This document shows, in pieces, positions 16,288 through 55,500 of a DNA stretch of 64,000 nt; positions within the stretch are counted from its first letter, which is position 1, and each line of letters opens with the position of its first letter. The stretch is taken from NCBI GenBank assembly GCA_029959195.1, contig CP114117.1, forward strand, positions 2,232,001-2,296,000, given 5' to 3'. A program made the translations under genes and the position numbers. The notes under the pieces are model-generated. The model had not been told where the DNA came from. It worked only from the letters and a program-made list of their open reading frames with translations, and made no database searches. This DNA is from Dictyophora rubrovolvata. Its lineage: Eukaryota; Basidiomycota; Agaricomycetes; Phallales; Phallaceae.

Positions 16288-19200
16288 TCATCCATTTTGC
16301 ATAGCGCTATGTCCAAGGGGATGGTGGTGGTAAACAGGTGATATGTGATGTGACGAAGAAGTGTGTGTCCGTGAATGAGGCATTCCATGATGATGTTGAT
16401 ATGCCAAGGACGAGGTGGCAGTCGACATACGATGTTTAGAACTAACATCAGAGGAGGGGCTGGCTGCTGGACCGCCTCGTGCGGAGCCCCCTACTTCCTC
16501 CTGAACAGAAGAAGATCCAATACCACTGTCTGGCGTATTGTTATTATTTCCAGCTGAAGTCATCCCGCCTAATCCGCCCAGTGGCGCCGCATGATGATGA
16601 CCTACGCTTCCTATGCTCCCAGCCTCGGGAACCGTCAAGCCAGGCAGAGTGTTGATGACACCCATGGCGGCATTTACTCCATTATTCCCACCGCTCATAT
16701 TCGCTAAACCCATACCACCTCCCCCACTTAAAACTTCCATGTTCATCATGCCTCCGGATGATGATGGATTGGTCATACCAAAATTACTGAAACTTGCGTT
16801 ACCGCCACCGCCGCCACCGATACCTCCCACACCAGCGCCAACGCTCGCCAGCGGATGCAACCCTCCGTTGCCATATCCCATTTCCGAGTGCATATAATAC
16901 CAGTAATAAATGTCCTCTACTGAAGCATCGGGGGGCAGTCCTTCGGCACCGGCTCCGCTATTATTATTTCCCCCTACACCGTTGGGGTGTTCACCATTTA
17001 CCTCCTCGGGAGATGGGACGCCGTCATCTGTCGTCAAGTTGTTCATAGTGCTGCGTCCTGTCACCGCGTGGTTATTGTTATTGTTATTATTCATGATAGA
17101 CATTGGCGGCTGATTGTACATTGCGTTAGAACTTGCTACCATCATTGTTCCGCTTGGTGCACCAATCGCGGTCTCAAATTGCAATGATTCAAATTCATCC
17201 TCGTTGTGAGATACCAGAGGGTGCGCTGGGAGATGAGATGATGCAGGGAAATGCCAAGGAGGAGAAGGAGGAGGATGGCCGGGAATTGCGGCATTATAAG
17301 GCAGCTGCTGTATCAGTGTAGATTGCTGCTGAACAGGCTGATGCTGTAGGTGTGACTGGACTTGAGCGGCAGACGATGATGATGCCGATGATGGTGATGC
17401 GCGCTGATGGGATAGAGCATGGCTGAAGCTGGATCTATGCGAATGCGCGATTCCATGACCAGCAGAGCTGGGATTCCCACTATGCGATGCTGATATAGGT
17501 TGAGATTGGGAAACGCCATATTGCGGATGTGAATTCATCACTGGCTGTGATTGCATGCGGTAGTGTGAGGATGTCGATGTCGTCGAAGGAACAGCATACG
17601 GCGAGTGAATATGATAACCCGATGGGTGTTGGTGTTGGTGTTGGTTGTGGTGGCTGTGGCTGTGGTTGTGGTGGTAAGGAGGGCGTGTCGGCGTACCATT
17701 ACCAGATGAAGAAGAGGAAGAAGAGGGAATGATGATTTCTCCACTATGGCGAGGAGAAAAGGAGGAACCGTTCGCAGCATTTGCACTAGAAGAAGAAGAG
17801 GAAGCAGCGAGTGCTGCAAGGCCATTTAAGCCTTTTGTATTTGCACCGGAAAATGAGCCGCTCAGAAGGGCGGCAGCGGCTGCTGAGGTGGTAGGTGATA
17901 CAAGTAGTGTATTACTGAAAGAAGATGTCGTCCCACCACTTGTCGGAGTAGACGAGGGAAGACTAGAGGTGCTAGTGCGTGACACTCCGTCGTCGTTGGA
18001 TGATGTGCCGGTGCCGCCGGTATTAGTAGTGGTGATGTTGGTATTTGAGGAGGAAGAAGAAGAAGGGGGAGCAGCTGTGATGGTAGCGCTGGAGGTGGGA
18101 ACAGCTTTTCTTTTCTCTCTCTCCGCTGCTCGGGCACGAATTGCCTTGTCTTTGAGTACGAGCGTCCGTAAGAAGCGTTCATGATATTCGACGGAAGAGA
18201 AAACCATCATAAAAGCCGAGGTTGTTGACTTGTCAGTAGTAGGACAGATGTTATTAGAACTGCCGACAAGCGGATTGTTGTTATGAGTATTATTAGTGTT
18301 ATTATTACTCGGCACTGAATCGCCATGCTTGGACCTTGAGCTCTTCGACGTGGCACCATCGCCACTGGTTGTTAAGGACGATGGATCTGTCTCCATTTTC
18401 CCTGCTGTATTGGAGGAATCCTCTGAACCTGACTGACCACCGTTTTCTATGCTGATATTGATATTTAACGACGATGGGGTGGTCATACTCTTGGCACAGG
18501 CTTGGTAAGCATCGGCTGCAGCGTTTATCAAGTCGTAGACACGCTCGAGGCTGTTTTCACCCAGACTGATAGATGAAGTCTGAACAACATTCCGAAGAAG
18601 CTTTTTGGCAAGGGAAAAAAAAAAAGAAATTATGGTGCAAACGTGAGACAGTGGGGGAGAAAGGGAGAGAAACCAAAAGAAGAAACATACTTTAAGAAGA
18701 AATACTGCAGAATATGCTGTCATGACGGTGATAGAGTCCTGTCCATAGCGCTAATTATTGAATATGTGTTAGTAGTCATGAAAATGATGGTGGAGGGGAA
18801 AAGGGACTTGCAAGCATGTCCACTTTGGCGAAATCGCGGGCGACGAGTTGAAGAGTGTCGGAGGCACTGGAATAACAAGTGCTGAGGGCAAGTATATTCG
18901 GAATTTGGGGACGAGAATCCGAGGAAAAGGGCGAACGACGATAATGATGATTATGTTGGTGGTGTTGGTGGTGTTGGTGTTGGTGGTGTTGGTGTTGGTG
19001 GTGTTGGTGGTGGTGGTGATGATGGTCCAGGAAAGAACTTTGTAAACCAAAGGAATTCAGGAATAGACGGACATGTAATTTGAAAAAGGTGAGAAAAGCG
19101 GTATGGAAATCGCCTCCCTTTGCTGAATAAAGAAGGTGAGTTTTTTTGGCCGTTAGGTTATATATTAAGATAATGGAAAACTTATGTATACTTTTTTGCA

Positions 19201-21578
19201 GGGCGGACATCCAGTCATCGCTCCATGCCTGGAGACGAGTATTGCAGGTATTGAGAAGGATATCATAGTTTACGTCAGCAGGAACGACGTCGCTACTGCG
19301 AGCTCTGTGCAGATAGAATATATCAATGACACTTGCAGCGATACGACGTAGCTCGACCTGGGCTGCGACAACGGTGTCGATAGGAAGGAGGACACCTTCA
19401 CGATACCAGTTGACGGCGTTGCGGACTAGATCGTCTTCGGGAAGCATCCATTGCCTGCCTGTCTGCATGCTGAGACTGCGATCATGGACCCAAAGGACGA
19501 GATAGGTTCTTTCACGGTTACGACGCTGGAGACGATGGAGCTCGGCGGGTTCGGCAGGTGGTGGTGAGATGGAAGGGGCTGCAGCAGAAGCAGAAGCAGA
19601 AGAAGACGATGATGAGGAAGGATGATGATGATATGTGTTGAGACTGAGTTCGACGGCCATCCTGGCGGCATAACCGATAAAGGTCCAAGTGCGTTGATCG
19701 TCTGGTTCTCTCCAGTAAGTCATGCACATGAAAGCCTGAACTACTTCGATGCGTTTCCAAGATTCTTGGAATGCGCGGAGACAGAGATCCTCGGCCAATC
19801 GTTGAACAGCTCTAAACTTTTCTGGCATGAAAAATTTGCAGCCCGCCATGCAGAGAACGGTGAAGAGGAAGGGACAAGCGTCACGGACGTATGTAGGAGT
19901 GTGCAAGGAGGGATCGAAGAGATTGATGAATGGATTGAGACGGAGAAATATCATTTCGAACAAGTAGGTGACTTGAGAGAGGGAGAGAATATTTTCTTTG
20001 ACTGGATCGGGAATTGGAGCGGGATTCTGGTGAAGACGAGAACTGAAAAAGGGAAGGTAACGAAGAGCGACGGGGGGAACATGATTATTAGCATTATTAC
20101 TATGATTGTTAGTCTTGTTATTGTTGGAGGAGATGGGAGGCAAAGAGGAGATAACAGACGAAGAGAGCCTTGGAGATATTGATCGAGGATGGTCGCGAGA
20201 ATAGGGATGATGGTGGTGGTGGTGGTGGTGGCGGTGGTGATTGTGGTGATTGTGGCGGAGGTAAAGAGAAGAAGGGGGAGGAGAGCGAGAAGAGGGAGCA
20301 GCAGCGGAAGACGTGCCGTCTTTAGTATGTCGGAGTTCTGCTGTCCGTCTGTGAGAAGAAGAAGAGGCGGGGGTGGTGGCGGAGGCGGTGACTGCAGGAG
20401 GGAGGAGGGCGGAAGGCGGGGAGGAAGACGATGAAGAGGACGAGGACGAGGAGGGGGGGATTATTGGTGGTGCAGGGGATGGCTTGGGGATAGGATTTGT
20501 CAAGACGGTGCCGAAAAAGTTATGGCGTCTGCCTTCGCGCTCGACCATCTTGGCAGGATACATGGTCTCTTCGTACTTTTCATCCTCGTCGTCGTCCTCC
20601 ATGGGATCCGGGGGTTGGATGGAGGGGGGACGATGGGAGAGGGGTGGCAAAGGAGTGGAGGTGGAAGAGGAGGAAGAGGGTATCATGGGAGGAGGGAGAT
20701 GGGGAGAAGAGGACGAGGAAGGGGGTAGGGGAGGGGGAGAAGTGTGCAGGTGTTGAGGCGGTGGGATGGGGAGAGTGTGGAATCTGGCGGAGGAGGAGGA
20801 GGAGGAAGAGGGCGGGGCGGGGAATGACGATGTCAGCGTTGGGAATAGATTACGGGGAGAAGAGGAAGAAGAAGAAGAAGATGGCGGTGGTGGTGGCGGA
20901 GGAGGAGGAGGAGGAGGAGGGGGTGGGGGTGGGGGTGGAGCAAGTGACATTGACGAGGACGAGGACGACGGAACTTGCGGCATCGACATCGACATTGATT
21001 TGAGTTTGACCTGGTTAGCAGAGGAAGAAGACTTTTCGATTTTGCGAAGAGACTTTGAAGCTTCGGACAGTCTTTCGCGTGGGATAAGCAAGAGAACACA
21101 ACAAGACGGTAGAGAAATTGGTATTTACTTTGAACCAGGTTTACGGCCGCGTCGATGTTTTTCGAAAATGCATCTTAAGACGGAGGGGGGGGTGATTGAT
21201 CGGAGAATGATGAATGAATGGGCAAGGGAGAACTCACTCGCTGTTGGACCGTCTGCATCGCTGACATGGTTTCGCACCGTCGTCTTCTGCACCGACGCAT
21301 TTCATCTATGAATGAGAGAGAGAGAAAGTGCGATGAGAATAGACATCGGAGATAGAGGGGAACAGGGAGCGCCATGCCAGTCTAATAGTGGACGGCGATG
21401 GAGATACGATAAGGTGGTGTGTGCTCACCTTGGCTGCTCGACATACGGTACATGCCCGGGCACCCCTCGAGATCACTGGTTTCGGTGGGCCATTATCCGA
21501 GTCTAGAGGCAGAGGCAGAGACACTGGCACTGGCACTGGATAGTCCTGCATGGGCAGAGGTGCAATAGGATACCTCAT
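16288..21578 (-). CDS. Fungal Zn2Cys6 transcription factor with very long low-complexity arms
   Basis: The first exon ends RGARACTVCRAAK and the second starts MKCVGAEDDGAKPCQRCRR, giving a CX2CX6CX10CX2CX6C binuclear zinc cluster, followed by the basic linker FEKHRRGRKPGSK. A long Ser/Pro/His-rich region (runs of about 18 prolines and several His tracts) precedes the fungal-specific transcription factor domain: FEMIFLRLNPFINLFDP, VRDACPFLFTVLCMAGCKFF, MCMTYWREPDDQRTWTFIGY, LVLWVHDRSLSMQTGRQW. A single C-terminal exon of roughly 750 codons is almost all Ser, Asn, Gly, His and Gln runs and ends HSAMQNG. The total is near 1,600 residues, about twice the usual size. The target genes cannot be told. 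Repeat-rich codons leave long open frames on the opposite strand that I do not regard as genes. Confidence 0.85.
18955..19020 (-). repeat. His/Asn codon repeat tract inside the Zn2Cys6 regulator
   Basis: On the plus strand the sequence is a run of GGTGTT and GGTGGT units ending at a GAT codon; on the coding strand it gives a histidine-rich tract (HHHHHQHHQHQHHQHQ type). It is a minisatellite-like coding repeat and a likely site of length change. Confidence 0.85.
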
Positions 21579-30012: not shown

Positions 30013-33000
30013 ATGCCAATGTCCGAGTCCGAGTCGCCCCGACACAAACGCACACCGCCATCCGATAAAGATTCAATAAGTCATATCTCGAAAAAAAGAA
30101 AAGTATATGTAGAGGTATGAGGATTTGACTTTTTATCTATTCTTCAGTACAATATTAATACGCGTGTTATTTAGGTTCCTCGCCTGCGGATTCAATTGCC
30201 AAAACCAACCCCAACAACTAGCGTTGCCGCTTCGGCTCGAACTACGTCACCAGGTGCTAGTCGTTAGTTGCAATCGTTCTCCCAAGTTTTTATTTGGCTA
30301 AATAAGAAATAAACTCTTAGTTGATACATCACTTTGGGATGTCAAAGTTGGACGAAACCGGTCACTTTCCGTGGACTCTACGTCGGAATCCAACTCAAGC
30401 ATAACCCCTCCGCCGAGTAAATGGTTCGATGCCGTTGAAATTACGCCATGTTCTAATAACCGTTGTATGTGTCGCAAGGGCAAATCAGTTGCTGATGTTC
30501 ATCTCAGCTAACCATTGATCATAGCTTTAACATACCAGCGCCGTTCCAGTGAGATAGCGGAAAGCGGTTCAGTAATAATACCGGGTGAATCTCCAGGGTT
30601 TGCCTCGAAATTAGACGATGTTCCTGTCAGGAATCTTTCCGATTTCGTTTTTTATGATTCCGAAAGGCAATTGACCCCTTTCGACGAAGTCTTGAGGAGG
30701 CTATCCTCTTCAAGTTCCAATGTCGTCTTCGGCTCCGGCCTGGTCACCTCCTGTTCAGAAGCAGGTGAATCACCACCGTCAATAACAGCACATGCACCTA
30801 CAGTAACCTTGTCACCAATCGTCGATTATTGGACCGATTACACGACCCGGGATTTGTAAGTTGAAAAAGCCTTCATATTTTTTTCCTTAGGACTCATTTC
30901 TTCTCCAAGAGTTGGTTTATGGCAACTGAGAGTAGTAGCGGTCAAAACACGTTTTGCATGGTATATCCTGCAAGCACCGGCAGACATCTATGTGTCGAGT
31001 TACCAGCTTTTCTGGGCAGCTCACTTTATTACGTGGCGTGCTGTGCATGCACTGCGGCAGAAGCCAGACACGACCCATCAGGAGTTTTTTTCGTATTTGA
31101 GAAAGGCTAGGGACATTGATTTCCTCAACATAATGGGACGGGAAATCACTCAATATGATTTATCCCGTCCATTTGTGGTTTGTCTTTGCCGCTGTCTCTG
31201 TGAATGCATCTCTTGACTGAAGATTGCCAACAGGCCACTTATCTGCTTGAGCAGCTAGATGGAAAGAACGCGATATTGAAGTATATGCGACAGCTTCCCC
31301 TAGTTCTAGGATTTGCCCGGCAAGAAGCCCCTTTGGGAATCGTACCGCTGATGAATGGAAGTGATACACAAACTGTCGTCACTCCCCGTGTGTTTTCGAT
31401 AGCACAGCATTTATTCCATCCTTTATTGTTTGTCGATGGAGGGAGGTGCCTACCCCCCCAACAAGAAATCATCAACCCCCCATTATTGCATCCAGACGAC
31501 CCGTCCAAAGTCTCTTGGGGAAGTTCAATACCAGGCAATCATGCTAGTCAACAAATGTACTCTAGCATTTGTATTGACGGCGTAGTGTATAAAGTTAGTA
31601 GCAGTTCCTTTATTATTTCGTCATCTTTCTAACTTCAACTTAGATTGGTGACTGTATTATGGTATGCATCTTTTTCAAGCTATATTCAGTGTGCCTAATT
31701 CTTCTTTTACTTAGGTGAAACCAGGTGTCGATGATTTAACTCATCGAGCGTTGAATGCAAAACAGCGGCACTCGCTGTCACATCAAAATCATATGGGAGA
31801 CTGTGTCTGGTGGGTCTTCAAATAAAAAAATTACTTCAGCGTATTTGAATTTTCACTGCTTTTAATCATTATTGCGTAGGTTCTGTAAAATACAATATAT
31901 GTTCGACTCGAGCTTATCAGAATCGAGGATAGAGCCCCTCCTGCACGTGCAGTGGTTCGAGCATAGCAGCAAAACTCTTTTGCAGGAGATGGCGCACCCA
32001 CTGGAATTGTTCGCATTATATGAATGCGATGATATTGCCGTCGGCGCTGTTCTTGGTTTAGTAGATGTTGTACATCCTAATTCAACGGACTTCGAGCCGG
32101 ACGGATATTATTGTCGGTGAGTTTGGAGAATAGCGCCGTTGATTTGTCACTTGACATTTTCAAGTTTTATCTGGGACTCGGAAAACTCGTCCTTTATTCA
32201 ATATTCACCTGCCGACCATCCTTCGGGTTCCTGTGAATCCTGCGAGAAAATATGTCAACAGGAGCTCTTAGACAGCAACGATGCAGTGAAGTGCACTCCC
32301 AGTAAACTAACCCTCAAGAGTGGTACAGAGTACCATGTAAATGATTTTGTTTACATATCAGATAATAATGATTGCTTGTATACCATCGGCCAACTACTCA
32401 AATTTTCAGGATCTGACAGCTCAGGAAGGTGGAAAGCACAGGTTTTGTTGTTCGGCCGTTTTGACGATGTTGCTCGACTTGAAGATAACCAGGCACAAGA
32501 TGAGGTATGTTTTCATGTTTATGGCTTTTTTATTGTTAAAACTACAAAACACGCTTACAGAGAAGATTATTTCAAACGGATGAGAAGCTTTGGATTTCGC
32601 CGACAGCATTTCAAGGGAAATGCTGGATCTCCAACTACGATGAGATCGACGATGAACACGGCTTAGAGACGTATTATGTGGATCGATGGGCTCCGACACG
32701 AACGTGCTCAAAACTGTCAGAGTTGAAGGCTCTGAGAGAAAAGGTCCAAAGATGTCCCGTATGTCTTGATAAAACAAGACAAACACGTGACGAGCGGCGC
32801 ACGTATAAACGAGACCACGTTCCACTTCGAGTGATGGAATTATTTGCAGGTAATCTCATTTCATGATCATGTATCTCCATACATAAGTTTCTATGATATT
32901 AGGAGCAGGCGGTCTGTCTACTGGTCTCGAGCAAGCGGGATTCGCGAAGTCGTACTGGGCCGTCGAGTTATCGCCCAGTGCGGCCGCCACATTCCAGTAT

Positions 33001-34878
33001 GGGCTCATCTGAGCTTTCTTGTTCTCTCTCTAGTGTATAACACTATTTTGTTTAGAGCAAACCATGACGATGCCGTAGTGTACAATGAAGACACGAACAT
33101 ATGTCTTCAAAGTGCGCTGGATGAGGCAGCGGGAAAGCCAGGACGACATCTCCAAACTGTGAAAGACGGGAAGCGCCTTATGCCTCGACCTGGGGAAGTC
33201 GACTTCATTGCTGGAGGTTTTCCATGCCAAAGCTTTTCTGGCATGAACCATCAACGAAAAAAAAGCGATGATGATATCCGGTATGTCATCATTTTTTGTA
33301 CATATATGCTTACTTTGCTGAATATATATCCTAGGACGACTTTAGTAGCTAATATGCTTTCCTACGTCGACTTATACCGGCCCCGCTTTGTGTTAATGGA
33401 GAATGTCAAAGGTCTCCTACAACATCACAGCAAGATTGGCCGCCTTGGATCGAGTGAAGATATCGCAGACACCGTTGAGGAAGTGAAGATGTCGATCGTA
33501 AAGCTCATCCTTCGGACACTATTGCACATGGGGTTGGTCATTCTCTTTTATATTTCATATGCTTTATTCCATGTATGTCTAGTTATCAAATCCGATTTCG
33601 AGTTTTAGAAGGTGAGACAGCTGGTTTAATACTTTTATTCACTGCCTGATATGGAGATTACCCTATAGCTGCAGACTACGGCTCCCCACAGCGAAGAGAG
33701 CGAGTCATCTTCATGGCGGCTCGTTGCGGAGAGGTTCTTCCATCGTTTCCGCTTCCAACGCACGTAACTGAATCCTACCGCGGACAAATTCTCACGTTGC
33801 CCACCGGCGACAAACTCCACCCTGTCGGACGCTCTGGGAAACAACATGCACCATTTCGCGCGTTGACGGTTGCTGACGCTATCAGCGATCTGGTGAGTGT
33901 ACAGTTCAACTTCTGCCCCATTTCTAGCACCAATATTCATCGAAGCCGAAATTCTCATGGATCCATCCGGGATGTGAATTCGGTGAAGACCCTGACTCAT
34001 CAATCGATGCGGATTGCAGGATCTTTTCAGCCGTTTCCAGCCAAAACCGCAATTTGGTTGGATTTCCAGCACCCGTTGCGTATCGAACCGGACCATTGAC
34101 GCGATATCAACAAAACTTGCGCACTTCGGAGCAGATGGTAACGTTACACTGTTCTAGAACATTTCAAACGGCCGTTGTTGAACGGTGAATAACACTTCCA
34201 AACATATAACCTTTAAGCCCTATTCATTAACTCTTTCAAGTGTTTGGCATATTTGCAGCCACGAACATCCTAAACCAGCCGGTATTATCACTGATTCCAT
34301 TTATACCCGCCAGATCTCACTGCATATAACTAGATCTACCTCAGCAGTTTTGGACCCCTGCTTTAAGGACCGCCATTAAAAATAACTCACAAAAAACGTG
34401 GAAAAGTATGTATTTTATTTCCTCTATTTCTGTTGTAATTAATTATTATATGAAATAGCACGGTTTGCTTGTCGTTTGCAGTGGGACAAAGCATTCAATA
34501 CCGCATTGACAACATGTCGGCCCTTCAGTAAGGGTACCAGCGTTTTACATCCGACGGTTTGACCACCCTTTACACCTCAATGACATCATACTAACTGTTA
34601 GTGTATTCTATAGCAGAAGCGCATTATCACAGCTCGGGAATGCGCTCGGTCCCAAGGCTTCCCCGACGATTATCATTTTGTTCAGGAGGCAGACTGTCGA
34701 GACTGGTCGAAATTACTGGACGATGTAGGTGGAAGACGTTGCATGGTCTGACATATGACTGATAGCATAGAAGATACACAAACAGATTGGGAACGCAGTT
34801 CCTGTGCCTTTAGCGAGAGCTCTTGGTCGTTCAATCGGGGCTGCAGTTTTCGAGAAATGGCAAAGCACTCGTGCATAG
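30013..34878 (+). CDS. DNMT1: DNMT1-type DNA (cytosine-5) methyltransferase, RFTS-BAH-BAH-MTase
   Basis: Predicted maintenance methyltransferase in the nucleus. Order seen: basic Ser/Pro-rich head, RFTS domain (VRNLSDFVFYDSERQLTP ... FAWYILQAPADIYVSSYQLF), two BAH domains (YKIGDCIMVKPGVDD onward; YHVNDFVYISDNNDCLYTIG onward), then the catalytic domain. Motifs: I ELFAGAGGLSTGLE, IV GGFPCQSFSGMN with the catalytic Cys codon at 33225-33227, VI FVLMENVKGLL, VIII YGSPQRRERVIFMAA, TRD PVAYRTGPLTRYQQNLRT, IX TARECARSQGFPDDYHF, X KQIGNAVPVPLARALG, ending FEKWQSTRA, TAG 34876-34878. No CXXC zinc finger is visible. The target-recognition part is cut by several small introns (after VVER at about 34184, near 34283, 34405, 34559, 34732), which make it look broken until spliced. 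More than a dozen introns in all; about 1,200 residues. Confidence 0.92.
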
Positions 34879-41033: not shown

Positions 41034-44000
41034 ATGGCCCTTACGACGACAACGACAACGACGCCATTTTCTCTATATACTGCACGGAAGTATCGTCTTC
41101 GTAACTCTCCGTCTTCACCCCGTCGCTCCAGTTCAGATAAGACTAACATACCGCAATTTTCTCCCTCAAGAGGGGTGTTGTTACCATTGCCCTCGAATTT
41201 GCGCCGGCGTCCATCGCGTGCTGCTCCCGCGAACGTCACTCTAATGTCACCTTCGGACACCGTTCAAGCTGGTGCAAAAAGGAAACGCGTGGCGAGCACG
41301 AATGAAAACATCCTTACGAATGGTCGCACGCTTAGAAGTCATAAACGCCGACGAGGATATCGGGAGCCTGATAGTGATGGCAGTGAAATGGAGGTTGACA
41401 ATGACGAAGAGGCCCTGTGGATACGAACGGAAACAAATAACGACGACGACGATTTCAACAGTAAGATCATTGCTTGTCGTACATTTCAGATATGGAAACA
41501 TTTGTTTAGGAGACCAGTACTATCAGAATATCGCACCCCTCAACCAGTTAATCCGCCTGCGTAAAGAAGAATTATGCCGATTATATAATCTGAACAATCT
41601 GACGTCTAGCCATGACTGCCTCACCAAGCAAGATCTCGCGGATGCTATTATCAGTGCGCGAACGAGTAGCGTCAGCTTACGTTCGTCCCCGCATGCAGGC
41701 CCGCCCAGTTCTCCCTCTTCCATAGGTGTTGGCGAAGACGAATCTGATATTGAGGAACTGAGATCTATTAGACGACCTACAAATCAATGTATAGGACGGT
41801 CGTTTTCTTTGAACTGTCTTGTTCCCAAAAGATCCTCAAGGCAGGCACAGCAGTATCAGAAAGTTTCACATAAACGCACTTATAAGGTAACCAGCGGGGC
41901 TGCTTCTCGAACACATTCAAATTCGACTGCTCAATCTTCTCGATCGTCTCCCACCGCGGTATCATCACCTCCTGTTCTCCGCTTACGTACTCGCACGGTG
42001 TCATTTCATCTGACCGATAAAGAAAAACTGACCGTGGTGAAATCGAAATTTAAAAACAAGCGTTCTACAGACTCGGACCTTGATGATGATCCAGCTTCGG
42101 CAGTCATTAAACCTTCACCCCGTCGTCTTAGATCACGACCTTCGTCAAAGGAACAAGAAAAACGCAGGGTGACCCCAATGCGCAAGGCAAAGTTGTCGAA
42201 GGACAATTTGAAAGAGTCGGATGACGGTGAAGAGATGCAGGACGAATTAGATACAGACGATGCGACTCCAGGTGTCTTCGATCCCCTTGTAGCTGCTGCT
42301 GAATATCAGGTACCGCGGCGAACCCGTTCGCAGGCTTCGGCAGAAACCTATTTCCCTTATGATCTGCGTCGTAGTCGTACAGCTCCTGAATTAGAAACAC
42401 CACAGCGCGGCACTTACCGAAGACGACATGTAAGGGTTGAACCCTTAGGCGCTGCAAGTGATGGTGATGACGAAGATACGGATGAAGGAACTGATGGAGA
42501 AAATAATGGAAGCGGAAGTGAAAAACATATGTCAAAGGACCGTAGGGTTGGTGTTTCACCAACTTTTACGGAACTGGAGTTGGAACCAAAGCGCCTGAGA
42601 AATGGCAAAATAATTGGTGAAGAAGAGGATTCTTTGTCTAATACGAGGAACGCATCTGGCGACGAGACGGACGATATCGCGTCTGTTGACCTGGAAGCCG
42701 AGTCTAGCAATTCGACAACGGAAACTACAAGCAGTGATCTATCCGCGGAAGAGCAAGAGGACGAAGAAGCAATAGAAGAAGTCGTGGATCCAGGAGTTGA
42801 TTTTGATGATGATCTTCAGGATGTCACTGCAAAAGCTCTTGTGCGTCGACGACGGGATGACTTAGTCAAACTTTGTGAAACTCGAGGTATAGATGCTGAG
42901 GGCACAAAACCTCAGTTGGTCGAGGCATTGTTGCAATGGGTCCGTCATAATCTATTTCTACCGCGCATACTCTAATTTCCTATTTAGCGAGATAGCCGAC
43001 CTGCTTATGGTACTTCGCCTTCTTCTGGTGCCACGGCCCGTCCCCCATCCTCTAGTCGCCTTGGGAAGGAAGACGAACCTCATACTCCCGTTTTAATGCG
43101 CTCCAAGAGAGCAAAGGCTTCAAACCCCAATACACCAAAGCCAGCTTCAAATCAGCTTGTTCAAGTCGGTGATGATAATGTGCTCCTGGATTTGGAGGGA
43201 CTTGGTTTAGAAGATAGCATGATCCCCCCATCCAAGTTGACGAAACTTGAGAAGATTGGTAGCGGCGGTTTTAAAGAGTAAGCTCTGAAACCAATCGTCA
43301 GCGCTTAAGATGCGCATTTATTCTTCATACTTTTTAGTGTGTACGTTGGCAAACTGGGTGGTAAAAAAGTGGCCATTGCTGAATTCAGGGGACAATTAAC
43401 GGAGAGTGCGTAATGTCTATCTTTGCGCTTCCTATCTCACAGTTTCCCAGTGGACATAAAAGAATTAAAGCTCTTGGCTCGATTTGCCCATCCCAATGTG
43501 GTGAAATTCGTAAGTCAATTCACGTTGTAAGCTGAAGTCGTTGATTATCGTGTTTTAGCTCGGTGTCAGTATACCTGAAAACCCAAAGGAAACCCCTATG
43601 ATCGTTAGCGAGCTTTGTTCGAATGGTGATCTGTTTGATTACGTCCGTAATGTGCCAGCGCCCCCTTTAAACAAAGTGGTATGTTTTTTATGAAGTCTTC
43701 TCGGTCAAGTCAGTCATCGTTGAATCCTACCCTTATCAGTTGAACTTAATGCTAGACATTGCCCGCGGACTTAAATATCTCCATGACCACAAACCGTCTG
43801 TGATACATCGGGATTGCAAATCATCCAACATATTGATCACATCTCGTGTGACAGCGAAAATAGCAGATTTTGGGTTGGCGAAAGTAAAACAGTCGACTCG
43901 CTCCATGGTTCGAAGTTTAGTAGGGACTGTAAATTGGCAAGCTCCGGAGCTTTGGCACCCTCATCCAAAATACAACTTCAAAGTTGATGTTTTCTCCTGC

Positions 44001-44322
44001 GCTATGGTGTTTTGGGAAATCCTTCAGTGGAACGCCAAGGAGAAGAAATATCCATGGGAGGTCCGTCACCACAAATTTCCGTATGCGGCGCATTCTGATT
44101 TCTTTACAGGGAATGAATGAACATGCTATTTATGATGCAGTCGGTTCTAAACACCAAAGACCAGCGGTCGCTGGTCTTGCCAAGCAATGGTGTTCAGAAA
44201 TTGTAGAGCTAATGGAGCAAATGTGGTCCCAGGATCCCAAAGATCGTCCCGATATGACAAATGTTGTGGAACAGCTCGAAAATCTAAAAGAAACGTATTT
44301 AACACATAGGATTAAGCGGTAG
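41034..44322 (+). CDS. SAP-domain protein kinase with atypical (WNK-like) lysine placement
   Basis: Two SAP boxes are visible: LIRLRKEELCRLYNLNNLT.. near 41540-41660 and LVRRRRDDLVKLCETRGIDA near 42835-42940, separated by about 390 residues of charged, Ser-rich sequence. SAP boxes bind AT-rich DNA, so a nuclear, chromatin-linked role is likely. The C-terminal kinase (about 43230-44315) has glycine loop KIGSGGFKDVYVGK, alphaC region DIKELKLLARFAHPNVVKFL, hinge IVSELCSNGDLFDYV, catalytic loop VIHRDCKSSNILI, metal motif IADFGLAKVKQ and substrate region GTVNWQAPELW, and looks TKL-like. The beta-3 motif reads KKVAIAEFRG, with Ala where VAIK lysine belongs (codon 43378-43380). A lysine sits in the glycine loop (codon 43273-43275). 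Ends THRIKR, TAG 44320-44322. I do not know a named orthologue. Confidence 0.85.
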
Positions 44323-44522: not shown

Positions 44523-47102
44523 TCATTGAAGCGTAAATGATAAGTCGAGGCCGTTGATAGCGCAAATAGCCGCCTCGAACGTCGAACGTGTTATGTCGCC
44601 ACTTACGGCAACACCCCACGAAGTACTCTCTTCGTCCTCCGAAATTCGCTGTAACTCCACGTACGAAGCAGCATTGGTCTCGGACCCTTGTCCAATGGAA
44701 TGTTCCGAAAAGTCACGTACTGAGAGTGTTGTTCCATCTCGAAGTTGAGTTTGGATTGAAGCAAGGAATGCCGACAATGGTCCATTTCCGCCACCTGCGA
44801 TCGATCGTATTTCACCATCAAATGAAATATCCGCTTGAATCGCCTTTCTGCCTTCCTCCGTTGTGAGTTTGAACGATTTCAATTCAACCCTCCCAACTAA
44901 GCCAAACCGATATGTCTGGATGAACAGATCTGCAATGCCCTGAGAAGACAGTCCACCTTGAATCCTCCGTGCTTCACGTTGCACACGTTTGAAAAATGAC
45001 GACTGTAGCCGACGAGGTAATTCCAAACCAAGGGAATGCAAAATTGAGTCGGATATATCAGTCGGTTGGGACTTGACGTTGAAAGCGACATTGGGTTTCA
45101 GCACTGGTAATGGCTTCTCACCGATGGCGTCGTTGAGAGCACTGAGGACAGCACGTAGTCCCGACGCCGCAATATCGGAATCAATACCGACACCCCAAAA
45201 ACCAGGTGAGGCAATTGCGCCTTCTATATTTTTTGACTCGACGAGTTCGACGTACGAGGCGGCTTTAACGTCGTTACCTTCACCGATAGAATGCTCCGAA
45301 TACTCTCTAACAGCGAGATCCAGGTCTAAATGATATCTGAGAGCGTCAAGTAAAGCCGATAGAGGACCATTCCCATCGCCACGCACGACGCGAGGGACAC
45401 CGTCTATCAATAATGTCCCATCAAATCGTTTCTCATGTGCGGCAATTTCCCCCGAGTCCCCGTTTGAATCCACGTCAGCCGATATCTGAGATATAGTGAA
45501 ACTACGAAGAGAAATTCGTCCACCGTCAATTCTGTAGGTACGTTGGAACGCGGTGACAATATCCTCTACGGTCATCTCCCGAGCTTCTCTATCAGCAATA
45601 GCTTGAATCACTTGATAGAAACTGATTTGCATCTTCCTTGGCATATCGAGACTTAATGCTTGTTTGATAATATAGGCGATTCCGCCTTTGCCGCTCTGTG
45701 AATTGACACGAATAATAGCTTCATATGTGCATCCAATATCCGCCGGATCGATAGGGAGGTAAGGAATGTCCCAGTATTGTGGCTCGCCTCGTAAGATGGC
45801 TTCTTTGTGTCTTTTGATTTGGGCTTCGAACCCTTTCTTAATCGCATCCTGATGAGAACCGGAGAATGCGGTAAATACCAGCTCGCCCGCGTAAGGGTGG
45901 CGTGGATGAACTGGAAGTTCATTGCAGGTGGTGACAGTTTCAATAACCGATGGGATGTCTGAAAAGTCGAGAAGTGGCGACACGCCTTGGGTATAAAGAT
46001 TCAAGGCTAAATTTGCGAGGTCGACATTTCCGGTACGTTCGCCATTGCCGAAGATGCATCCTTCTACTCTGTCGGCACCCGCCATCATCGCCAACTCTGA
46101 GGCAGCAGTGGCAGTCCCTGCATGAATTGTTAAATACAATTAAACAATCAACATCGGAGATAGCTAACCTCGGTCATTGTGAGGATGAAGACTGATGATG
46201 ACGTGTTCCCGGTGGTTGATATGTCTAGCGAAGTACTCGATCTAACCAAGGCATATCAATATTGTCAAAGAAGGTAATAGTGCAAGATTACCTGATCGGC
46301 ATAGTGGTTGGGTGTGGCAATTTCGACAGTAGCAGGAAGGTTGAATATAATCCTATTCTCTCCAGGTCCAGCCTTGCCCCAAGCTTCTAGAACTGCATTG
46401 CATATTTCGATAACAAATTCAGGCTCGGTTTGACTGAATGTCTCTGGACTGTATTCGTATCTAAATTTGGTCCCATACTTGGCGCTGTATTCGTCCGTCA
46501 GTTTTCGAACTAGTCTTGTATGAGTAACAGCCAGTTCGACCGTCTGTTCTTTGGTGTTACGGAAAACGACATCTCGAAAACATGGGCATGTGGCGTTGTA
46601 CATGTGGAGGATAGCATGTTTAGCACCAGCGACTGAATCGATTGTCCGACGAATAAGATCCTCGCGGGCCGGTGTGAGTACCTTCGAAAAAGTTGAACGA
46701 CTTGGGCCGAGAAGAGATGAAAACCTGACTTACTTGTACCCAAACATCGTCTGGAATTCGATTATTCTCGACGAGACCGCGTACGAATCCAAAGTCGGTA
46801 TCGCTAGCGGCTGGGTAAGCCACCTCGATTTCTTTGAAACCTGTCTGCACCAGGAGGTCGAAAAACCTGCTCTTCTGTTCGATTGTCATCGGGTTGATTA
46901 GTGCTTGATTTCCATCACGCAGATCTGTCGACAGCCATATTGGGGGTTTATCAATCGTTTTTGAAGGCCACGTTCTGTCAGGTAAGTGAAGCGGGATGTA
47001 TTTCTTGTATTTCGTGGAGGGGTCTTTGCTGTACGACAGGAAGAGTCAGCATTCTTTGACTGAAAACTGAAGAACGCGAGAACCAACTCACAGCATAGGC
47101 AT
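44523..47102 (-). CDS. LEU4: 2-isopropylmalate synthase with two C-terminal regulatory modules
   Basis: Condenses acetyl-CoA with 2-oxoisovalerate, first step of leucine synthesis. The TIM-barrel part has [102 protein letters not shown] and [20 protein letters not shown]. After [15 protein letters not shown] the leucine-sensing part appears twice: [12 protein letters not shown] ... [20 protein letters not shown] ... [20 protein letters not shown], and again [12 protein letters not shown] ... [20 protein letters not shown] ... [20 protein letters not shown]. The linker subdomain ([30 protein letters not shown]) is also doubled. About 790 residues against about 620 in yeast. Start [14 protein letters not shown], with an intron in codon 4. 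Divergent to GUS1. Confidence 0.93.
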
Positions 47103-52500: not shown

Positions 52501-55500
52501 ATGTCGATGCCTCCTGCCTCGACTTCAGGCCATAATTCCCAGCCAGAATTTACCCACGCTATACAATACATCAACCGAATTAAAACTCGATTTGCCGACG
52601 AACCTGAGACCTATAAACAATTCCTCGAGATCTTACAGATGTACCAAAAAGAACAAAGAGTACTGCAAGACGTAAGCATTCATGACTTGTTGCTTCATCT
52701 CTTTCCTACACCGTCTCTTGCGTTTCTTGCTTTGGGATGGTATTATTAACTTATAATGAAATTAACAACAGGTATATGACCAAGTCACTCGATTGTTTCA
52801 TAACGCCCCTGAGCTTATTGACGAATTCAAGATGTTTCTACCGGACACGAATGCCACAGCTAATTCAAATGTACTAAGTCTCGGCGCCGGTATGTCTACT
52901 GGAGTCCGAAGAGCGCCGCATGACGACGCTTCCAAAGATGGTCCGCCTGCTAAAAGACGTAGGGGGGCACCTCCCGATAAAGATTCAGTGGGACCTGCCA
53001 CTCAACAACACGCTCTCATGCACACACATGGCACAGTTCCACCCCACGTCCATCCCATCACACATGTCGCAATTACATCCCATCCTCCTCACGCTCTCCA
53101 TGTACCCCATGGCGCAGTTTTACCTCACCCTCCTCATCCCCTCCATGTGACACATGCAGCAGGTCCACCCCTTTCCCATCTGCCCTCCGTTCAACCTATT
53201 CCGCCGCTCCCGGAAGTCTTTTTTGACCGTCTCAAGCGGGCTTTGGACGATCGTGATTCCTGGGAAGACTTCTTGAAATTACTAACCATGTACTCGATGG
53301 ACGTCTTGGACGAGCCTCTGCTACTTCAAATGGCCACTCCGTTCCTTGGTGGAACTGGTAGTGAGTTGGAAATGATGTTTCGTGAACTCTTGGGCGTTGG
53401 CATGGACGGCAAGAGAAGAGAGGATGCAACTAACAACGCAAACTACATCATGAATAACGCTGAGTTGCCTCGCATTACTGGCCATGCCCGTGGACTTGGT
53501 GCCGGGGCTACAGCGGGTATGGGCTCTGTTTATTTGACAGGCAGCAAATATCGTTTCGGAAGTTACAGACGGCTACCTGAGAGCGTAAGTAGTAACAGCA
53601 TATGTTGTTATCGGGAAACAAACTTTAACTTTTTCGCATACCATTTTACTAGGAAACCAAACTGGCTTGTTCTGGTCGCGATGAAATTTCTAGGTCTGTC
53701 TTGAATGACGAGTGGGTATCGCACCCTACATGGGCTTCTGAGGACTCGGGATTCGTGGCCCACAAGAAGAACACTTACGAAGAAGCCATGCATAAATCCG
53801 AAGAAGAACGGCACGAATATCATGTACAATTAGAGGCCATGGTTTATACTATCTCCTTACTCGAACCCATTGCACTGAAAATCACTAATATGTCACCGGA
53901 AGAAAAAGCGGCTTTTAAACTCGGTCCATCCCTTGGCGGTCGTTCTAAGTCAGTCCATCAGAAGATAATTAAGAAAGTGTACAATCGTGAAAATGCTTCG
54001 GAAGTCTTGCAAGCTTTACAAGATAATCCCGCTGTTTCCATTCCTGTCGTCTTAGAACGGCTCAAGCTTGTCGATTCAGAGTGGAGGAAAAATAAAAGAG
54101 AGTGGGAGAAAGTTTGGAGAGAGGTGGATGCCCGCAATTTCTACAAGAGTCTTGACCATCAGGGTGTTAGTTTCAAGGTCAACGACAAAAAAACGATAAC
54201 AGGAAAGGCTCTGCTCGCTGAGATTGAAAGAATTAAGGGAATGCAAAACTCAGGAAGAGACAGTCGGGAAGAGGAAGGTGCCGGCGGTAAGAAAACCCAA
54301 GGCACTCGTCTTTCTACCGACAATCCTCGTTCCGCCTTTTCCTCCAGAAAGTCAATCTCAGTTCATCCTCGGTATCAGCTTCAGTATTCTATCAGCGATC
54401 CTCTAGTCCTGCAAGACGCCATCAAGCTGACGTTGTACTTCCTCGAAAGAAATGACTCTCGTCAGGGCGGGGGGGCCGGCGTTCCACAATATAATGTAAT
54501 AGAACGAAGGCGGATTGAGGCCTTTCTGCGGCATTATGTAAAGTTTCAGTTTGAATTTTCTCAACCATTCAATGATTCTACAGGTGAGTCCTTTATCAAA
54601 AAAACATGTCGACATTTAAAGACGAGTGCAGCAGAGACTACTGTCATGCCCAGTGAATTTGATCTTGCTTTTGGACCACCTATCACGGATGAAGAATGGG
54701 AAGAATTAGGTCTTTATATCCCAGACCCTGCAGCTGGGACAATGAAGACTAATAACAATGGAATTTTTGTTTCTTCAGTGACAGAACATGGTAATGGCGA
54801 TAGGAGAAGTCCCACTTTGAAGGATAATATTCAGAATGCTAAATCAATCGATCATGAAGAAGATCCTGGTGATATTTGGATTCGGCACCTAAAAATCGAG
54901 TTACCTAAAGAGAATGAACCTGTTTCGATGGTGACCGACGAAATGGTAGTGGATGCAGAAGATTCTCGGCCTCAACCCCAGCAGTATCGGCGAAAGAAAT
55001 TCACCTCGTTTTTCTGTAATACCACCTTCTACACTCTCATACGAATGCTACAGGTACGTGCTGTTTCCTCGCCTCAGTTGATACATTTTCATTCATTCAA
55101 TCCATCCTAGCTGTTGTATTCACGCCTCTTGATGTGTAAAGAATTAGCCGCGAAACTTGCCCATGAAAAATTTGGCACTTTCTTACCCAATCCCATCGCG
55201 TTTGGGCTGGGTCTCACCGACCTAGCAGGGCCACTGGCGTATTTTGGCGATTTGGCTGCCACAAGTAAGTGTTCCTTAAAAAGCGTCACGCATATCTGAT
55301 CGATGTTTTTTTAACACATCTAGTGGTAGATGGCAACGCATCATCTAAATTTAGTTCAATTCCTATACTCAATGGATCAAGTAACTCAACAGCTTCTGCT
55401 GACACTTCGTCCGGCGTCCAGGATCCACATTCTAAACTACCATTTAAACCTGCCGAACATTTTTACAGTCATCTTTTAGATTTGGTCGAGAAGTTGTTTG

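Follow-up and report, generated by a model that had tools for sequence, protein, structure and literature searches.

The 64,000-nucleotide stretch of Dictyophora rubrovolvata DNA analysed here (the window) carries, on the plus strand, a gene whose predicted product joins a SAP domain to a protein kinase domain. Its features are, in window positions:

41034-44322, plus strand: SAP-kinase gene, eight exons, 975 amino acids, with GT-AG introns of 45-61 bp
41034-41460, 41510-42939, 42988-43277 and 43338-43405, plus strand: exons 1 to 4 of the spliced gene model
43451-43509, 43559-43678, 43740-44060 and 44110-44322, plus strand: exons 5 to 8 of the spliced gene model
41539-41661, plus strand: first SAP-like stretch (LNQLIRLRKEELCRLYNL...IISAR), recognised by eye and weak
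42853-42939, plus strand: SAP domain, amino acids 591-619, Pfam SAP score of 21.3 bits, below the cut-off of 23.9
43258-43275, plus strand: glycine loop GSGGFK; the intron at 43278-43337 starts within the next codon
43273-43275, plus strand: loop Lys715 (AAA), the proposed ATP lysine, at the third glycine position and in the column of WNK1 K233
43378-43380, plus strand: beta-3 Ala730 (GCT), standing where VAIK has its lysine, in the column of WNK1 C250
43406-43450, plus strand: 45-bp intron after the beta-3 exon, its splice fitted to the TEMDIKEL of relatives
43462-43464, plus strand: alphaC Glu743 in the spliced protein, the proposed partner of the loop lysine
43559-44060: part of the gene that bears the signature residues, from the family columns
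43812-43814, plus strand: HRD Asp823 in the spliced protein, the catalytic base
43866-43868, plus strand: DFG Asp841 in the spliced protein, metal binding

An alpha-isopropylmalate synthase (LEU4-like) frame at 44523-46139 on the minus strand is convergent with the kinase gene; Pfam recognised LeuA_dimer and IPMS_D2 in it, and also the end of HMGL-like. Two frames at 52793-55107 (plus strand) resembled a Sin3 co-repressor gene (PAH, Sin3_corepress), and one at 32844-33605 (plus strand) matched C-5 cytosine DNA methylase. The stretch at 16291-21091 (minus strand) contained two long open frames, of 811 and 771 amino acids, with no Pfam match, together with raised GC (0.47-0.54), a GC skew of up to 0.31 and TGG-type tandem repeats.

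The spliced kinase gene encodes the product IGSGGFKDVYVGKLGGKKVAIAEFRGQLTEMDIKELKLL, in which both key codons are in frame after removal of the intron at 43278-43337, and whose kinase part matched that of its relatives in alignment; the start codon and the first intron are predicted positions. An alternative splice after the beta-3 exon, giving TESAFPVDIKEL, was discarded and the intron at 43406-43450 chosen because relatives carry TEMDIKEL there; the first protein search and the same-genome paralogue search were made with a query that carried TESAFPVDIKEL in place of TEMDIKEL. The residues on which the original prediction was built were all recovered in the spliced protein: the VAIK lysine of beta-3 is alanine (Ala730), a lysine (Lys715) stands at the third glycine of the loop, and HRD and DFG are intact (Asp823 and Asp841). 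The alphaC glutamate (Glu743) is present too.

Three protein searches returned 987, 687 and 934 matches, and the best 120 of each gave 290 different proteins, separated into the family (P0001-P0252) and its next relatives (P0253-P0290). The family sequences are mutually related and were sampled from these best 120 matches per search; their alignment had 253 rows, the 252 proteins and the window's own, of which 64 with a gap in one or both key columns were dropped from the joint count. Both columns were filled in 189 family rows. Of these, 186 paired a loop lysine with a small residue at beta-3 (Gly 119, Ala 48, Ser 15, Cys 4), and the three exceptions (P0065, P0097 and P0222) appeared by eye to be truncated or misjoined there, as broken gene models. 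Homologues with a normal VAIK lysine, or loss of the loop lysine among relatives, had been named beforehand as signs against the prediction; the beta-3 column held lysine in 0/197 filled family rows, and the loop column held it in 191/193. A smaller first alignment of 121 rows had lysine at the loop column in 61 of the 66 filled rows, with the loop exon missing or misjoined, by eye, in the other five. Unbroken sequences that have both lysines, or that lack both, were not seen among the matches listed.

The remaining catalytic residues were also largely kept. The alphaC column was Glu in 195, Asp in 13, Arg in 1 and Gly in 1 of the 210 filled family rows; the HRD Asp and the Lys of HRDxK were each present in 245/246, the following Asn in 246/246, and the Asp and Phe of DFG each in 251/252. 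In a set of 66 members, hand-picked for diversity and mostly with complete N-lobes, the loop Lys160, alphaC Glu188, HRD Asp268, Lys270, Asn273 and DFG Asp286 (P0001 numbering) were invariant. Judged from this conservation, the loop-lysine arrangement is an old trait of the family and not a local change in one kinase. An error of sequencing or of the gene model, or decay of a local copy, has a negligible probability: the loop and the beta-3 motif do lie in separate exons and the splice initially placed nearby was wrong, but the same residues occur in relatives from many genomes, the closest named one being Sphaerobolus stellatus, whose protein is 87% identical across 100% of the kinase query (among the best 120 of 987 matches). 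Homologues sharing both residues rule out a local mutation or error.

The matches listed include family members from Agaricomycotina, Ustilaginomycotina, Pucciniomycotina, Mucorales, relatives of Mortierella, arbuscular mycorrhizal fungi, Kickxellales, Dimargaris, Basidiobolus, Massospora and the aphelid Amoeboaphelidium, so that Basidiomycota, Mucoromycota and Zoopagomycota lineages are named among them; no Ascomycota or chytrids were named among the matches listed (best 120 of 987, 687 and 934). The eukprot sequence P0242, which we take from its sequence prefix to be from the aphelid Paraphelidium, had the same loop lysine and small beta-3 residue. Three further positions were nearly invariant in the family and unlike the nearest outsiders, namely the Gln of WQAPE (235/241), the Cys of SELC (228/228) and the Trp of PELW (243/245), and they are usable as a family signature. 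In P0210 (Furculomyces boomerangus), the family kinase and an RNase P p30 domain are annotated as one protein, which may be a real fusion or the product of two gene models run together.

A conserved arginine three residues past the beta-3 position (VAIxExR), present in 185 of the 198 filled family rows, raises the question of whether it stands in for the missing residue, so that the loop lysine would be of no consequence. This is very doubtful, as the aphelid-type sequences P0239, P0240 and P0242 retain the loop lysine and lack the arginine, and an offset of three in a beta strand would be expected to face the other side.

The arrangement set the family apart from other kinases in two controls. 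In the nearest relatives outside the family, a loop glycine and a beta-3 lysine were found in 38/38; this count was taken by motif match, since the family alignment misplaced these canonical rows at beta-3 (30/38 showed A). Applied to the 252 family proteins, the same motif match put 10 off pattern and gave no result for 67, and the family counts rest on the alignment instead. Within the 28.2-Mb, 11-contig genome, 27 other kinase N-lobes starting at profile position 9 or earlier were obtained from 135 matches, of which 0/27 had a loop lysine and 26/27 had the beta-3 lysine; the remaining one (L031) was a poor match with neither. No close paralogue was seen in the same genome, where the other matches were fragments with 26-44% identity. 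A true WNK was also sought in this genome, exon by exon with the WNK1 domain, and the best match was a MAP3K-like kinase at 34%, the rest being weaker.

For the attachment of a SAP domain to this kinase, likewise predicted originally, the sub-threshold Pfam score of the protein encoded in the window counts as a weakness, and Pfam SAP matches at E<=0.01 in 33/66 relatives count in favour. The first SAP-like stretch is regarded as weak because Pfam does not report it at E<=1. An aphelid member had a similar N-terminal SAP-like motif. The structural model of the SAP stretch was modest (mean pLDDT 73.1); it superposed on the solved SAP domains of Tho1, Hcc-1, E1B-AP5 and nucleosome-bound DEK with an rmsd of 0.5-0.7 over 33-36 columns, at E-values of 1.1-4.5, none of them below 0.001. 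The matches in relatives, the aphelid motif and the resemblance in fold together make the combination of SAP and kinase look old in the family, and we infer that the protein binds chromatin through this domain.

These results indicate that the gene probably encodes an active kinase of the TKL group, with its ATP lysine in the glycine loop and tethered to chromatin by the old SAP domain. Because a lysine is kept in the glycine loop as in WNK, the protein has probably remained catalytically active instead of being a dead copy, and the earlier suggestion of a possibly active TKL-like kinase fits the family-wide conservation of the loop lysine, alphaC Glu, HRD and DFG. In the proposed mechanism, the ATP-contacting lysine would have shifted from strand beta-3 to the third loop glycine, at the start of strand beta-2, from where it would bind the phosphates of ATP and also form a pair with the alphaC Glu, a conserved residue, as in WNK1, while the small beta-3 residue (Gly, Ala, Ser or Cys) would make room for it. 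As the remaining catalytic machinery is ordinary, phosphorylation of Ser/Thr is expected, and it would take place near DNA or chromatin, at a site set by the SAP domain. In the structure predicted for the Sphaerobolus protein (mean pLDDT 80.6, with the kinase domain mostly >90), the loop lysine was the first residue of strand 160-167 (beta-2). The displaced beta-2 lysine of WNK1 is reported to be needed for catalysis (PMC10211241), and POMK is described with a catalytically required lysine at the beginning of beta-2 and a serine at beta-3, the double exchange K93G/S108K being reported to bring activity back (PMC5142810); the likeness to both is a strong analogy for activity.

It is quite improbable that the family consists of conserved pseudokinases, with weak or no ATP binding, which act as chromatin scaffolds and use the loop lysine for folding or for binding a partner. 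The VAIK lysine on which motif-based catalogues rely is absent, the TKL group is said to be the richest in pseudokinases, those of plants and fungi above all (PMC10211241), and conservation of catalytic residues does not prove turnover. On the other hand, the HRD Asp, the HRDxK Lys, the Asn and the DFG Asp are all kept, though a pseudokinase could lose some of them, and the loop lysine stands exactly where WNK and POMK use theirs.

The relationship of these putatively active kinases to WNK and to TKL kinases was examined by profile scores, trees and structural searches. On the family profile, all nine TKL outgroups (168.9-222.5 bits) scored above WNK1 (165.1 bits), and still did so once both lysine columns were masked (171.2-224.8 against 160.1 bits), which argues against the family being a branch of WNK. 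In the opposite direction, the STE rows (112.7 and 104.9 bits) trailed WNK1 by some 50 bits or more and EGFR (118.9 bits) was also well below WNK1, whose mean identity to the family (31.2%) was inside the TKL range (29.5-35.7%). An HRDLKSxN-type catalytic loop is a feature of the TKL group; this motif and W(x)6RP occur in the family and are missing from WNK1, and the corresponding columns of the family rows held Ser in 244/246, Trp in 217/218, Arg in 213/223 and Pro in 214/223. In addition, WNK1 carries DLG, the replacement of DFG by DLG being a hallmark of WNK, while the family carries DFG. The W(x)6RP motif is described as common to TK and TKL (PMC3937382).

Three trees were built without the two lysine columns, the first with too few outgroups and the third with more rows and a second, provisional WNK sequence added. 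The family was monophyletic with support of 97/97 in the second tree and 93/98 in the third. The second tree grouped WNK with STE (90/72), and the third, in which one WNK sequence is provisional, separated STE and WNK from the family and TKL at 79/95, neither result being conclusive; a group of the family and TKL was absent from the best second tree and, with a p-AU of 0.211 there, was not rejected. A joint clade of the family and WNK was not rejected either, with p-AU values of 0.44, 0.275 and 0.072 for the first, second and third tree. A Foldseek search with the kinase model gave the TKL kinase TNNI3K at the top and WNK3 at rank 44, and the VIA structural search gave the TK kinase BTK and the TKL kinase CTR1 tied at the top with no WNK among the best 50 rows, neither of which is an argument against kinship with WNK. 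When WNK1 was searched against solved chains at E<=1e-30, its only non-WNK matches were an EGFR construct and the TKL kinase CTR1.

A fungal WNK branch, whose loop lysine would go back to the same origin as that of animal and plant WNKs, is one reading of the family. It has in its favour the same lysine position, the retained alphaC Glu, a beta-3 Cys in some members as in WNK1, the joint clade that none of the three trees rejected, the lead of WNK1 over the STE rows and its solved-chain matches; the best trees, the higher TKL scores, the DFG motif and the two TKL-type motifs speak against it, and we consider it unlikely. A separate origin of the loop lysine in the family and in WNK is favoured by the sequence comparisons, though not proved. 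The original prediction that this kinase had reached the WNK arrangement independently therefore stands as the favoured view, backed by the best trees and the TKL scores against a joint clade that was not rejected even in the third tree (p-AU 0.072), and it applies to the whole family instead of to one protein. We lean towards a family as old as the split between fungi and aphelids that moved its lysine on its own, near or within TKL, and that would be active and tethered to chromatin.

Sensitivity to halides like that of WNK had also been suggested for this kinase and is not borne out by its DFG motif. Counting from K233, the Leu of the DLG of WNK1 is residue 369, and the family has Phe there in 251/252 rows. 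WNK1 L369F is reported as a chloride-insensitive mutant (PMC13397483), and sensing of the WNK type by the family appears unlikely from sequence because the DFG Phe occupies the position of that mutation. In favour of the idea, the displaced lysine itself has been proposed to let WNK1 bind halide (PMC4718504), and the lysine position in that proposal would, by analogy, be common to the family. With its lysine moved and its DFG Phe ordinary, the family would be a natural system in which to ask whether a loop lysine by itself confers halide sensitivity.

No description of a SAP-domain kinase family with a loop lysine was recognised in the literature searched, which was mostly outside subscription papers, and we know of no earlier case of a migrated lysine in TKL. 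If correct, the family would be a further migrated-lysine case beside WNK and POMK, and the first known in TKL. The same shift throughout a large ePK family would mean that the lysine can move repeatedly, and motif tests would no longer lead to a fungal family being labelled as pseudokinases. The available parts of PMC5052723, PMC2838846, PMC1420674, PMC3019232, PMC7586955 and PMC4718504 do not include the family. POMK is a later addition to the cases of a migrated lysine (PMC5142810).

Among known systems, WNK1 has the same lysine arrangement as the family. Both have a lysine at the third loop glycine (K233 of WNK1, in the same alignment column as had been predicted), no beta-3 lysine (C250) and an alphaC Glu (E268); the family differs from WNK1 in its DFG in place of DLG, its TKL-type C-lobe motifs and its SAP domain, and the best trees place the two apart, though not conclusively. 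In sequence and fold, the nearest kinases are the TKL members CTR1, TNNI3K and plant STY13/HT1-like kinases, and normal TKL kinases differ from the family in having a loop Gly and a beta-3 Lys (38/38 outsiders; CTR1). POMK (SgK196) resembles the family in its lysine at the beginning of beta-2 and in the Ser at its beta-3 position (PMC5142810); it is reported to have Gly in place of the alphaC Glu, to have moved the roles of HRD and DFG to other motifs and to phosphorylate a sugar (PMC10211241, PMC5142810), whereas alphaC Glu, HRD and DFG are ordinary in the family. For the CAK-chloro subfamily, which is not an ePK, a similar transfer of charge from K72 to the loop has been suggested; there the loop residue is Arg, K72 is replaced by Met and the alphaC Glu by Phe (PMC1821047). 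The fungal FslK kinases are, like the family, related to TK/TKL and uncharacterised, but are reported with all conserved subdomains, a comparison made by description only (PMC3937382). FslK is reported missing from Ustilaginomycotina, Pucciniomycotina and two Cryptococcus species (PMC3937382), whereas the family is represented, among the matches listed, in Malassezia, Testicularia, Melampsora, Phakopsora, Rhodotorula and Tremella.
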